Virus record (IMG/VR): IMGVR_UViG_3300043640_000353
Coordinates: 1 to 64,000 of that record
Source of the DNA: a virus
Direction: 5' to 3' (one strand)
Length of the DNA stretch: 64,000 nt
A program made the translations under genes and the position numbers. Below are positions 12,802-21,215 of the stretch, in pieces (within the stretch, counting starts at the first letter, position 1; every line of letters starts with the position of its first letter). The notes below the pieces were generated by a model. That model was given only the letters and a program-made list of their open reading frames with translations, was not told the DNA's origin and did no database searches.

Positions 12802-14868
12802 CTATTGATTTAAACCATATTGAGTTGATAATTCATTTTCCTGACCTTCATTGATTTTTTTCTCTAATACTTTTTGACCATCTATATATACATGTACATG
12901 AGTATTTTTTGGGGTAGATAGGGAATTAAAATTTCCTGAGCCATTAGCTTTATAGGGATTGGCACTATTGGGGTAAAATGGGGTATCTAAGCTGTTTCTA
13001 AGATCATTTTTACCATAGGAATGCTCATAAATCCTGTTTTGCCTTTGCGAAAAGGTTAAACTATCAGGTCTATCAACCCCGGGAATCCACCCTATTATTG
13101 ACATAATTACATTACCTATGGATGCCACCAGCCATTTTAGTGACGCTATAACTACCCCAATTTGTTGTTTAAAACTAAATCCCGAAATTGCTAGAAATCC
13201 CGATATTAAACCTATTGGAGTTAGAAATCTACCTATGATTCCTAATACTGGTAAAATACCACTTAAAGCACTACCAAATCTTGATAATAGGGGGGTTATC
13301 CTCCCCAATATCCCTAATGACCCAGAAGCTGCGGCGGAAGCTGCCCCCCCTGCCATTTTATAGGCTGGTGTTATAATTCTACCGGTAGCGGCATTTATTA
13401 AGCTTCCGGCGGCATTTATCCTTTGCCCCTTTCCTATTCCATTAATAATTCCCAGGTATGTTAATGCCCGGGCAATAAGTGTATTCCATACCCATAGGCC
13501 AGTTGATCTGAATGTAGCTAGGCCAGATGTTAAACCCATCATACCTCTCCCTATTAATCCTATGGTCATTAACATAACTCCCATTGGTATAAGAATTAAT
13601 CCAAATAAGGCAATTCCTCTTATTAACCATTTACCTAAACCAGTTTGAGCAAAAGCAGTTAATTTTTCTAACATCCTATTTAAGATGGGTAAAATCCTGG
13701 TTATTAGTGGTAATAAGGCATTACCAACGGCTATTTTAAAATTATTCCAATTAGCAGATAATCTCTCGGATTGGAAAGCTATACCTTTACTTTTCTCCTC
13801 AATGATTTTCATATTAGCTCCGGTACTTCCGTGAGTTAATGTTTCTATCATATCAGCAAATGATTTACCCATCCATTTATCATTCTCACCTTTGGCTAAG
13901 AAATCTAAAAGCGGATTTATACCACGTTTACCTCTTACTCCAAATAAATCATTTAAAACATTCTGCCTTTGAACATCCCCCATCCCTTTTACTCCCCGTT
14001 TAATTTTATCAAGGATTTCAAGTGGTCTTTTTAAATTACCGTAAGCATCCATTAAATCCCCCCGAGATAATCCCAATGAAGCCAATGCCTTATTTTTCTT
14101 TTCACTACCTCCACCCAGGGCAATAGCGATTTCCCTCCACGCATTACCCAGGGCAGTTCCAGACATTGAAGCTTTAATACCCGCATTACCTAATACCCCC
14201 ATCATGGCAATAGATTCTTCAAAGGTCATGTGTAAACCTTTTAAAATATCCTGGGAATATTTCATGGATTCAGCTAAATCACCAAATGATACGGTAGATT
14301 CAATTGAAGCCTTTGCCATAATATCCCCCGCTCTAGCAGCTTGATTGGAATTCATTCCCCAAGCCATCATTATATCCGTCATTCTGGCAGCTACCCCACC
14401 TTCACCTTCAAGGGCATCACCCGCAGCGGTAGCAGTTTGAAGGATAGCTTCCATAACCTTTGGTATGTCATTAGCTTTTAAACCAGCTTTAACCAAATCC
14501 TCCATACCCTTAGCTACCACTATAGCATTTCTACCATATCTAGGTCCCAGAGATTGGGCATTTCTACCAAGCATTGTCATCTCGCCATTGGTCATTTCTC
14601 CTAATGCTTTGACATTTAATAATACTTGTTGGAATTTTATTGATTCCTCAACTGAGGCTTTCATACCCCGAGTAATACCATAACCAACTACAGCCATACC
14701 AGTTCCCACGGTAGTCATGAGATTAAGGCTATTTCTTATTGCCTTATTCGCATTACCATGTAAACTGTTCATGGTATTGGATATTTTATTGGCATTTTGG
14801 GTAAATCTATCCCTTAATTCAATAATCAATCCAATACCTAATGTACTTGTGCCTCCTAAGCCTATCAT
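12802..14868 (-). CDS. Tail tape measure protein
   Basis: 688 aa. The N-terminal region has the long helices with Gly/Ala-rich pattern of the TIGR01760 type (DIMMAWGMNSNQAARAGD, FGDLAESMKYSQ, EESIAMMGVLGNAGIKASMSG). Hydrophobic segments near residues 420-445, 520-570 and 575-595 are expected for membrane insertion at ejection. At about 0.15 nm per residue it would imply a tail near 100 nm (estimate). It follows the chaperone gene as in most myophages. Confidence 0.87.
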   Translation of the reverse strand: MIGLGGTSTLGIGLIIELRDRFTQNANKISNTMNSLHGNANKAIRNSLNLMTTVGTGMAVVGYGITRGMKASVEESIKFQQVLLNVKALGEMTNGEMTMLGRNAQSLGPRYGRNAIVVAKGMEDLVKAGLKANDIPKVMEAILQTATAAGDALEGEGGVAARMTDIMMAWGMNSNQAARAGDIMAKASIESTVSFGDLAESMKYSQDILKGLHMTFEESIAMMGVLGNAGIKASMSGTALGNAWREIAIALGGGSEKKNKALASLGLSRGDLMDAYGNLKRPLEILDKIKRGVKGMGDVQRQNVLNDLFGVRGKRGINPLLDFLAKGENDKWMGKSFADMIETLTHGSTGANMKIIEEKSKGIAFQSERLSANWNNFKIAVGNALLPLITRILPILNRMLEKLTAFAQTGLGKWLIRGIALFGLILIPMGVMLMTIGLIGRGMMGLTSGLATFRSTGLWVWNTLIARALTYLGIINGIGKGQRINAAGSLINAATGRIITPAYKMAGGAASAAASGSLGILGRITPLLSRFGSALSGILPVLGIIGRFLTPIGLISGFLAISGFSFKQQIGVVIASLKWLVASIGNVIMSIIGWIPGVDRPDSLTFSQRQNRIYEHSYGKNDLRNSLDTPFYPNSANPYKANGSGNFNSLSTPKNTHVHVYIDGQKVLEKKINEGQENELSTQYGLNQ

Positions 14869-14874
14869 ATATTG

Positions 14875-15027
14875 TCAGATTTTTCTTAGTTGTTCATGGT
14901 ATTCATCGCAATTTTGTAAAATTTCTTTTCGAAGTGAAATAGGTAAACTACGGAATTCCTGAAAGGACATAGTTACCTTACTACGGGAAACGTAACACCA
15001 ATCGGATATTAAGCCTCCTGAGGAAAG
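14875..15027 (-). CDS. C-terminal extension of tail-assembly chaperone, reached by -1 frameshift
   Basis: 50 codons in the -1 frame, from the base after the slip site to TGA at 14875. Joined to the 240 residues before the slip, it gives a 290-aa fusion. The segment contains SFQEFRSLPISLRKEIL, a helix-rich stretch typical of chaperone long forms. An internal ATG at 14970 would give only 31 aa and has no good leader, so frameshifting is the better explanation. Confidence 0.65.
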   Translation of the reverse strand, partial: LSSGGLISDWCYVSRSKVTMSFQEFRSLPISLRKEILQNCDEYHEQLRKI

Positions 15028-15746
15028 AAAAAACCGGTTTGTGCCATTAAAGATATATTTTGAATATGTCCACAGAATGGGCATTCACATTCGCTAATGG
15101 CATCAAATGGTAAATCATTCTCGGTAATATCTGCCCTGATTTCTTTCATATCTTTGGCAGATAATACTCCGAATGTTTGTAGGGGTTGCCAGCGATCTTC
15201 AAAATGCCATTGTATATTTCTTACTAGGAATTCTGTATTCCTGTCCATATCATCTTCCTTTATCTCTAGTAATTTCTTTTCGGAGTGACCATTAAGATAT
15301 GTATATTTTATTTTTTTACCACTAGAAAGAATTATTTCTCTATCCTTTTCATCCCCATATCTGTAAGGTTGGATCTTATATTTAAAACTATTTTCCTTCT
15401 TACCATCAAATTCATCTATGTAGGGTAATAAACTTTCCTCATATTCATTTTCCTTCTTACAAGCATCATTTTTACACCGTAATTTAAAGGTGATTAAATC
15501 CCCCAATGAAAAAATCCTGGAGCGGAATGTGGTATAATATTTATCCTTATTCTTCCAGTTCATAACCTCATTGGCTGTTGGACCAGGACCATCCATCATT
15601 GCTATAACTATGCCAGAAACAAACTTGGTAATTGCGGTACCATCTTTAGAATTTTTCATCTTAGATAAAACACCATCATCATCACCATTCTGTTCTCTGA
15701 TTGTTACCAAGTTCCCTGAAGGATTTTTAAATGTTAGGCTTTCCAT
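15009..15746 (-). CDS. Tail assembly chaperone / gp26-like baseplate assembly protein, short form
   Basis: 245 aa, placed between tube and tape measure, where tail-assembly chaperones lie. Two Cys clusters (CKNDACKK near 110, and CECPFCGH near 225) look like one zinc site. The segment FRSRIFSLGDLITFKLRC has the layout of T4 gp26-type proteins. Just before the stop, the minus strand carries T_TTT_TTC in the correct phase (15033-15027), a perfect X_XXY_YYZ slip heptamer, with the stop 16 nt further on. This parallels lambda G/GT and P2 E/E', the latter slipping on T6G. Confidence 0.7.
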   Translation of the reverse strand: MESLTFKNPSGNLVTIREQNGDDDGVLSKMKNSKDGTAITKFVSGIVIAMMDGPGPTANEVMNWKNKDKYYTTFRSRIFSLGDLITFKLRCKNDACKKENEYEESLLPYIDEFDGKKENSFKYKIQPYRYGDEKDREIILSSGKKIKYTYLNGHSEKKLLEIKEDDMDRNTEFLVRNIQWHFEDRWQPLQTFGVLSAKDMKEIRADITENDLPFDAISECECPFCGHIQNISLMAQTGFFFPQEA

Positions 15747-15794: not shown

Positions 15795-15822
15795 TAAAGG
15801 GGCAAATAACTCTGCCCCTTTA
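15795..15822 (-). terminator. Hairpin after the tail tube gene
   Basis: TAAAGGGGCA (15795-15804) pairs with TGCCCCTTTA (15813-15822), an 8-nt loop. On the minus strand it follows the tube stop at 15840 and precedes the chaperone start at 15746. It may lower readthrough from the abundant tube/sheath mRNA into low-abundance tail genes. Confidence 0.7.
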
Positions 15823-15839
15823 TATTTGGTATTTAATTA

Positions 15840-16295
15840 TTAAGCTTTGGCATTTTGATCTACCTCAAGTTCAATACTTTCCATGGTATTATCTGAACCT
15901 TTTCTATCCAGATCTATCCCATTTCTTTTTGAAGGCCAGCATCCATAAAATGTCCAGGTATTAATAATGGTAATTCCATCATTACTGTATTGGTCAACAG
16001 TTAATGTCCTTTTGTAGATGGAAGGTAAAAAACCACCACCCAAAAATTCATTTTGTACTTCAGACATCCAGTTCTCTACCCAATTATCTGGGGCTAATGC
16101 GGATGATATTTTCTCCATAAGCAATTTACCAATCTTTTTTATACCTCCGGTTTTTACCAGATAATTAGTATCCCCATGTTCTGTAATATCAATAGACCAT
16201 TCAGGTAATGTTATCTTTTGACATAAGAATGGGTTTAACCCGGGGGCATAAACTGAAAATTGGAATTGTTTTCTGGGGTTTGCTATGTTTGCCAT
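15840..16295 (-). CDS. Major tail tube protein (gp19-like)
   Basis: 151 aa, in the size range of T4 gp19. Features fitting the family: NPRKQFQFSVYAPGLNPF at the start, a TLPEW element, the loop segment HGDTNYLVKTGGIKKIGKL, and a late beta-strand TIINTWTFYGCWP followed by ESIELEVDQ. It polymerises inside the sheath. It follows the sheath gene and precedes a terminator, consistent with high expression. Confidence 0.85.
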   Translation of the reverse strand: MANIANPRKQFQFSVYAPGLNPFLCQKITLPEWSIDITEHGDTNYLVKTGGIKKIGKLLMEKISSALAPDNWVENWMSEVQNEFLGGGFLPSIYKRTLTVDQYSNDGITIINTWTFYGCWPSKRNGIDLDRKGSDNTMESIELEVDQNAKA

Positions 16296-19971: not shown

Positions 19972-20442
19972 TTATAGGTTACCCATATAATCCCCAGTTA
20001 ATATCTCTTCCCTGGATAATATAATCATTATGAGTAATGGTTCATCCTTTGCTTGGGATATTGGAGTTTGACCAGTGGATTTATATTTAATGCCCTTATG
20101 TATAAACCTATCTGCATCTTGTTGGAAATTGAAATTACCCGCCGGAGTTAAATATCCTGAATCCCTTAGATATTTAATGTTTAATAAAATTACCTCAGTT
20201 TGCCTATCTAATTCCCCAGTATCTGTGGTTTGATTAATTGGCCATTTCCTAAAAGCATTATAATCAAATAATCCAAGAAGGGTAACCACGGCAAATTGTT
20301 CTGTTAAATTATCCTCACCATTCCTATCTATACCACCCCGGGATTTTAACCAAATGATTTGATCCTGATTAAAGGTATCATGTCCATCGTTTATTATGGA
20401 TTTATATTGAGCCCATACTGAATTACCTACTAAATCTGCCAT
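19972..20442 (-). CDS. Head-tail connector/neck protein, unassigned
   Basis: 156 aa, between the PKD-adaptor and the tail-completion gene, sharing a 1-nt junction with the former. Helical first third and a beta-rich last third (RFIHKGIKYKSTGQTP, LLIMIILSREEILTG). Position fits a head-closure (gp16-like) or neck protein; sequence alone does not prove it. Confidence 0.45.
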   Translation of the reverse strand: MADLVGNSVWAQYKSIINDGHDTFNQDQIIWLKSRGGIDRNGEDNLTEQFAVVTLLGLFDYNAFRKWPINQTTDTGELDRQTEVILLNIKYLRDSGYLTPAGNFNFQQDADRFIHKGIKYKSTGQTPISQAKDEPLLIMIILSREEILTGDYMGNL

Positions 20443-21215
20443 TACAATGAAAGTTTAATATATGAAGGCCAATCAGTCCATAATTTATGAGTATTTCTAC
20501 CAGCTTTAAGTTCAATAAATTTGGGATCAGGTAATGGTGGGCACATAGGTAATGAAATCATTAATCTGTAAGCTAAGCTACAAAGTTCTTGACTCAATGC
20601 ACTTATTACTCCATTATCCCGAGCAAATACGGCTTTTTGTATATTGCTAATATCCTGAAACTCAGCTTCAGATGGTCCGGTAACAATTTTCTTAACCACA
20701 GCGGAATTCCCATTTGCCCCGCCTGCTGCCCCAGATATTGCTCCCTGGGAAGCTAAGTCAATGGATATAGAATAGGCAGCTAAGTAAGCAATTAGGGCAT
20801 TTGCTAGAGGTGGGTAGGCAGTTTCGTTAAAAACATTATTAAAAGAAACTTCTGGAGAAACTAGTGGTTGTATATATAATTGCCATGTAGCAATATAGGC
20901 CTGTTTAGCTTCTTCATTTATGGATATACCCCCAGGTAATTTGATGGAAATAAGTTGGGATATGGTTATGGGTAATACCGGGGATGTAGAGATTATGAAA
21001 GATCTCTGTAATGAGGATGACCCATCGGTATTGGTAGCTATAAGCTTTACAATATAAGTTCCAGAAGTAGAATATGTATGGGAAGGATTTTGTAGAATAC
21101 TTGTGGTAGAATCACCAAAATCCCATGACCAGGAAGTTGGGGTACCTGTTGATGAATCCTGAAAATTTAATGTTAAAAAATTAGGACTTACCAAAAAGTT
21201 AGCAACTGGGATCAT
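20442..21215 (-). CDS. Head-tail adaptor with N-terminal PKD domain
   Basis: 257 aa. Residues about 3-77 form a clear PKD domain: LNFQDSSTGTPTSWSWDFGD, then PSHTYSTSGTYIVKLIATN. The rest (about 85-257) is helical with a LANALIAYLAAYSISIDLASQG segment, matching a small connector/adaptor placed downstream of the capsid genes. Such Ig-like modules often decorate virions and may bind carbohydrates. No signal peptide is present. The PKD domain is confident; the connector role is inferred from position. Confidence 0.7.
   Translation of the reverse strand: MIPVANFLVSPNFLTLNFQDSSTGTPTSWSWDFGDSTTSILQNPSHTYSTSGTYIVKLIATNTDGSSSLQRSFIISTSPVLPITISQLISIKLPGGISINEEAKQAYIATWQLYIQPLVSPEVSFNNVFNETAYPPLANALIAYLAAYSISIDLASQGAISGAAGGANGNSAVVKKIVTGPSEAEFQDISNIQKAVFARDNGVISALSQELCSLAYRLMISLPMCPPLPDPKFIELKAGRNTHKLWTDWPSYIKLSL

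Follow-up and report, generated by a model that had tools for sequence, protein, structure and literature searches.

Gene organization of the locus

The DNA analyzed here, referred to as the window, is a stretch of 64,000 nucleotides (positions 1–64,000 of the IMG/VR virus record IMGVR_UViG_3300043640_000353), in which a small tail gene on the minus strand is followed closely, in another reading frame, by an open stretch leading up to the tape measure gene. The features concerned are as follows, in the direction of transcription.

15840..16295, minus strand: tail tube protein of the gp19 type, directly upstream of the chaperone gene (Pfam PF06841, E=1.4e-13)
15009..15746, minus strand: 0-frame gene for the 245-aa short form, a T4 gp26-type tail assembly chaperone (PF12322, phrog_150, AlphaFold2 model)
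15027..15033, minus strand: slippery heptamer T_TTT_TTC, in phase (sequence reading and 65 of 76 distinct homologous loci)
14985..15019, minus strand: candidate stimulatory hairpin, beginning 7 nt past the 3' end of the heptamer (family folding z-scores and pair counts)
15009..15011, minus strand: 0-frame stop codon TAA, 15 nt after the heptamer (64 of 76 distinct loci share this distance)
14875..15027, minus strand: −1 frame C-terminal extension of 50 codons plus TGA, giving a predicted 290-aa long form (frame conservation, selection, AlphaFold2)
12802..14868, minus strand: tape measure protein, starting 6 nt past the stop codon of the extension (Pfam PF10145, E=2.1e-35)

The 245-aa protein matches Pfam family PF12322 (T4_baseplate) over residues 3–119 with E=2.4e-5, its score of 24.6 bits being barely above the gathering cut-off of 24.5, and its relatives score near or below that cut-off; it also matches phrog_150 (baseplate hub) with E=0.0015. 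AlphaFold2, given 40 aligned sequences, modeled the protein with a pLDDT of 92.8. Among 656 chains compared with this model, the top structural match is the HK97 tail assembly chaperone 2ob9 (Z 6.6, thus below 8; 81 residues of the N-terminal domain, rmsd 3.4), followed by 3fgx (Z 6.0), the next unrelated chain being at Z 2.9. The model comparison supports, without proving, a chaperone fold for the N-terminal domain; with Foldseek alone, neither the chaperone model nor the extension model had a significant match in the PDB. A first interpretation, made from the letters alone (hereafter, the sequence-only reading), had named the gene a chaperone lying between tube and tape measure. The identity is borne out and can be refined to the T4 gp26 type (PF12322), and the placement is corroborated by the Pfam matches on both sides (PF06841 upstream, PF10145 downstream) and by the same order of tube, chaperone, and tape measure in four further loci. 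The gap from the end of the extension to the tape measure start is 2–14 nt in the six loci in which it was measured.

Two other features of this region are worth recording. Between the tube and chaperone genes, the window contains a strong terminator-like hairpin of 12 pairs (15795–15822, minus strand), which possibly lowers chaperone expression relative to that of the tube. Shortly upstream of the slip site, the window protein carries a zinc-ribbon-like CxC..C motif, CECPFCGH (15065–15090, minus strand); zinc-ribbon-like motifs are also present in T4 gp26 and in the chaperones of injection systems, and are absent from the gut-phage relatives L002–L005.

Slip site and −1 reading frame in the window

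The codons closing the 245-aa reading frame on the minus strand are GGT TTT TTC TTT CCT CAG GAG GCT TAA, in which T_TTT_TTC stands in the phase needed for tandem −1 slippage. Direct reading of the minus strand and recomputation confirm the heptamer in phase at 15033–15027, as had been claimed; its distance to the stop codon, given earlier as 16 nt, is corrected to 15 nt between heptamer and stop. After a slip, translation would yield LSSGGLISDWCYVSRSKVTMSFQEFRSLPISLRKEILQNCDEYHEQLRKI over 50 codons up to the TGA codon ending at 14875, and the long form is predicted to have 240 + 50 = 290 residues, so that both the extent of the open −1 frame and the size of about 290 aa put forward in the sequence-only reading hold. 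The −1 frame of the window also contains two in-frame ATG codons, one at 15084 opening a −1 ORF of 69 aa, the other at 14970 inside the extension.

Conservation of the slip site among relatives

A single-sequence search of viral contigs with the window protein retrieved no relatives, but alignment-based scans did. The first homologues were four distinct gut-phage records with about 30% identity to the window protein, and all four have T_TTT_TTC in phase, exactly 15 nt from the stop codon, followed by a similar −1 extension. In two of them, a stop codon of the −1 frame directly precedes the heptamer, so that the extension can be entered from upstream only via the slip. In the public record of one of the relatives, L005 (KX501134), a hypothetical protein annotated on the reverse strand covers the end of the chaperone gene (200–430), and both the chaperone and the extension are missed.

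Since the earlier alignment scan had used a pattern containing FF and hence was biased toward FF, the scan was repeated with the C-terminal part removed, the query for the survey being a profile of the window protein minus its last ~35 residues, which includes neither the slip site nor the extension. Applied to IMG/VR and to one genome per bacterial and archaeal species, this profile gave 80 viral loci and 2 loci on bacterial contigs, and the extension is kept in the −1 frame in 80 out of 80 loci reaching the gene end. Removal of duplicates and addition of the loci found earlier gave a set of 76 distinct loci. The heptamer is T_TTT_TTC in 65 of these, T_TTT_TTT in 3, and T_TTT_TTA in 1, the canonical T_TTT_TT[C/T/A] thus being present in 69 of 76, and the remaining 7 are degenerate. 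The spacing from heptamer to stop is 15 nt in 64 loci, 12 nt in 8, 18 nt in 3, and 24 nt in 1. The degenerate sites (in L064, L065, L066, L072, L073, L081, and L087) read T_TTT_TAC, T_TTT_TAT, T_TTC_TAC, or T_TTC_TTC, and the −1 extension is kept behind them.

The codon choice at the site is far from that used for the same amino acids elsewhere: T_TTT_TTC makes up 7 of 170 Phe-Phe codon pairs (4%) elsewhere in the related loci versus 65 of 69 at the slip site (binomial p about 7e-85, with related sequences counted as independent). Third codon positions vary freely upstream (entropy about 1.6–1.8 bits), but their entropy is at or close to zero in the heptamer. In 53 of the 76 distinct loci, the −1 frame has no ATG, GTG, or TTG between its opening and a point 20 codons beyond the slip; in several relatives, this frame opens exactly at the heptamer. 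The sequence-only reading had predicted that homologous phages would share the heptamer and the −1 extension, and had looked to homologues lacking the slip site, or giving the extension its own start codon, as the evidence against it; the shared heptamer and extension are indeed found, the few homologues with degenerate sites retain the extension, and most loci lack a nearby start codon.

The extension as a protein

Beyond the overlap with the 0 frame, substitutions are distributed over the three −1 frame codon positions as 159/98/242, and pN/pS of the extension is below 1 in all 11 comparable pairs (range 0.15–0.84). The extension is therefore under protein-level selection in the −1 frame. 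Its consensus is FFLSxGxLExxYFY...EFxxLPxxRRxKF...Y, and its conservation starts at the heptamer, ahead of any candidate ATG. AlphaFold2 predicts a three-helix domain (pLDDT 88.8), in keeping with the helical tail suggested from the sequence. In Pfam and PHROGs, no credible family was found for the extension, with only weak matches to phrog_12109.

Candidate stimulatory hairpin

For 55 representatives, the mean folding z-score of a 60-nt segment starting 5 nt past the heptamer is −1.55, versus −0.25 to −0.47 upstream. With a 12-pair hairpin set in one register across the family, 76.3% of the cells are paired versus 71.6% in shuffles, none of 500 shuffles reaching 76.3%, and both sides have changed in 25 cells versus 8.1 in shuffles; this register also beats the slid ones. 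There is thus moderate covariation support for a family hairpin. RNAalifold found no consensus structure in a 48-column alignment of the family, so that the hairpin rests on the z-scores and the explicit pair counts, and in the window sequence alone it is not significant (z −1.0). These two results limit our rating: the hairpin is likely real for part of the family and, for the window alone, a candidate.

Proposed mechanism and alternative explanations

It is highly probable (roughly 0.93) that a −1 frameshift of the lambda G/GT type operates on this T4-type chaperone gene to yield a short and a long form. The programmed frameshift proposed in the sequence-only reading is strongly supported by the conservation of the site, the selection in the −1 frame, and the missing start codons in most relatives, and its analogy with G/GT or E/E' is upheld by the position between tube and tape measure, the canonical site, and the conserved extension. 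From these comparisons we infer the slippage itself, its efficiency, the role of the hairpin, and the binding of tape measure and tube by the two forms. Most ribosomes would stay in frame 0 and produce the short chaperone of 245 aa, which corresponds to lambda gpG. A minority would pause at U_UUU_UUC, aided by the hairpin about 7 nt downstream, where the two Phe tRNAs would slip back by one base, and reading would go on in the −1 frame to give the 290-aa long form with its 50-aa three-helix tail, the counterpart of lambda gpGT. By analogy to lambda, many short copies may coat the tape measure protein and a few long copies may recruit tube subunits via the tail, the slip setting the ratio of short to long.

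The −1 ORF might instead be a separate small gene translated from its own start (ATG at 15084 or 14970) by coupling or internal initiation. The two ATG codons of the window, the former opening the 69-aa ORF, would allow this, and in several relatives the second helix likewise contains an ATG at about this position; however, 53 of the 76 loci offer no nearby start codon, a stop directly precedes the heptamer in L002, L003, L021, and L095, and the conservation of the extension begins before any such ATG, making separate initiation very improbable. We attach a similarly small probability to slippage of RNA polymerase on the T6 run, by which the long form would come from an edited mRNA. The six-T run is conserved and the same kind of fusion protein would result, but six T are short for bacterial transcriptional slippage, the seven loci with degenerate sites have only three to five T and yet keep the extension, the codon phase and the final C of the heptamer are conserved, and the spacing of the hairpin is typical of −1 ribosomal sites.

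In AT-rich DNA, T-rich heptamers occur frequently, and the coincidence of heptamer and open −1 frame could in principle have arisen by chance in an AT-rich genome. This explanation, by far the least probable of those considered, is refuted by the survey, given the conservation in 76 distinct loci, the codon selection in the −1 frame, and the confident three-helix model. Against ribosomal frameshifting stand the 7 of 76 loci with non-canonical slip sites, the hairpin's lack of significance in the window alone and of an RNAalifold consensus, the non-significant hhalign comparison of the extension with the T4 gp51 tail, and a structural match to HK97 below Z 8.

Comparison with known tail chaperone systems

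Frameshifted tail chaperones of the lambda G/GT type are a known kind (PMC5009743). The window gene resembles lambda G/GT and P2 E/E' in its place between tube and tape measure and in a slip close to the 3' end of the short gene (for lambda, PMC5009743), as well as in a C-terminal extension without a start of its own, the window itself nevertheless holding the two in-frame ATGs; it differs in belonging to the T4 gp26 type (PF12322) and in its site, U_UUU_UUC. G-T frameshifting is described in a review as conserved "except T4" (PMC5009743), and some of the phage findings may already be in Vladimirov et al. 2022, which PMC10885494 cites for the separate genes of T4. In T4, gp26 and gp51 both match PF12322 strongly (Pfam), the match of gp51 ending at residue 201 of 249 and leaving a 48-aa C-terminal tail. 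The T4 pair thus likewise comprises a short and a long form of the same Pfam family as the window protein, but is encoded by two genes, 26 and 51, instead of one frameshifting gene. Comparison by hhalign of the extension and chaperone profiles with T4 gp51 and gp26, the gp51 tail included, was not significant.

A −1 frameshift on poly-T has been proposed for the tail assembly chaperones of Vandenendeviridae and Andersonviridae, and according to the same paper, T4-like chaperone genes are already known to have poly-T sites (PMC12846349). By motif and layout, those contractile phages are similar to the present family, having a conserved GTTTTT motif and a −1 ORF reaching the tape measure gene (PMC12846349), whereas the site of the window family is T_TTT_TTC. 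Although the T4 gp26-type chaperone has been reported as the exception to frameshifting in tail genes, a large clade of contractile phages very probably uses a −1 slip to produce it in two lengths. The gp26/gp51 pair of T4 would then look like a two-gene replacement of one frameshifting gene, and many unannotated extensions would gain a reading frame.

DUF6760 in bacterial contractile injection loci

DUF6760 (PF20546) is a domain of unknown function that is widespread among bacterial contractile injection loci. A search for it in two phyla and plasmids gave 32 loci (L098–L129), the upstream gene being resolved in 30 distinct ones. In all 30, DUF6760 is encoded in the −1 frame relative to a small tail-assembly gene directly upstream, which follows the tube gene where checked. 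This bias is no proof by itself, since an ATGA overlap would likewise place the second gene in the −1 frame. In 22 of the 30 loci, G_GGG_GAR or GGGGGGA stands shortly before the stop codon of the 0 frame, the usual layout being NNG_GGG_GAR_NNN_stop. The G motif is absent from 7 others, which carry canonical heptamers of the T or A type, and in the remaining locus, from Haloferax, DUF6760 starts at an overlapping ATGA; the two in-phase heptamers of this locus may be due to chance. G_GGG_GAR occurs in the last six codons of none of 175 control ORF ends from the same loci. GGGGGAA has been reported as the slip motif, named "fivetwo", at about a thousand tail chaperone sites of actinophages (PMC10885494). 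Fourteen DUF6760 loci have no nearby start codon. The 0-frame stop is mostly TAA or TAG, so that the overlapping triplet reads ATA instead of the ATG that a TGA stop would create, and this speaks against selection for coupled initiation; a GTG or ATG is, however, present at this position in Streptomyces-type loci and in Rhizobium.

Both DUF6760 and the phage extension are short C-terminal domains, encoded in the −1 frame immediately behind a small tail-assembly gene that is itself preceded by the tube gene; they differ in slip motif, mostly G_GGG_GAR for DUF6760 versus T_TTT_TTC in the phage family. An hhalign comparison of the two gave a probability of 64% (E=6.5e-5), whereas by hmmscan none of 37 phage extensions matches PF20546 at E<=1; from these profiles, the phage extension and DUF6760 appear to be remotely related. 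The hhalign comparison of DUF6760 with the T4 gp51 tail (E 9.5e-4, probability 22%) is suggestive at most.

We consider it likely that DUF6760 usually forms no protein of its own and is instead the C-terminal half, made by −1 frameshifting at G_GGG_GAR or at canonical heptamers (e.g., T_TTT_TT[A/G] and A_AAT_TTT), of the injection machine's own tail assembly chaperone. Such domesticated machines would have kept the short-and-long device of phages, and some lineages, such as the archaeon Haloferax, would have replaced the slip with an overlapping ATGA start. Within the open-access literature, no paper on DUF6760 or on frameshifting in contractile injection systems was found, and to that extent the proposal seems new. 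It offers a concrete meaning for DUF6760 in contractile injection systems, whose assembly matters for engineered protein delivery. In sequence records, DUF6760 is either annotated as a separate protein or left out.

Elsewhere in the window, the head-tail connector region encodes a 257-aa protein (20442–21215, minus strand) with an N-terminal PKD domain (PF18911, E=1.6e-16), which is unusual there.
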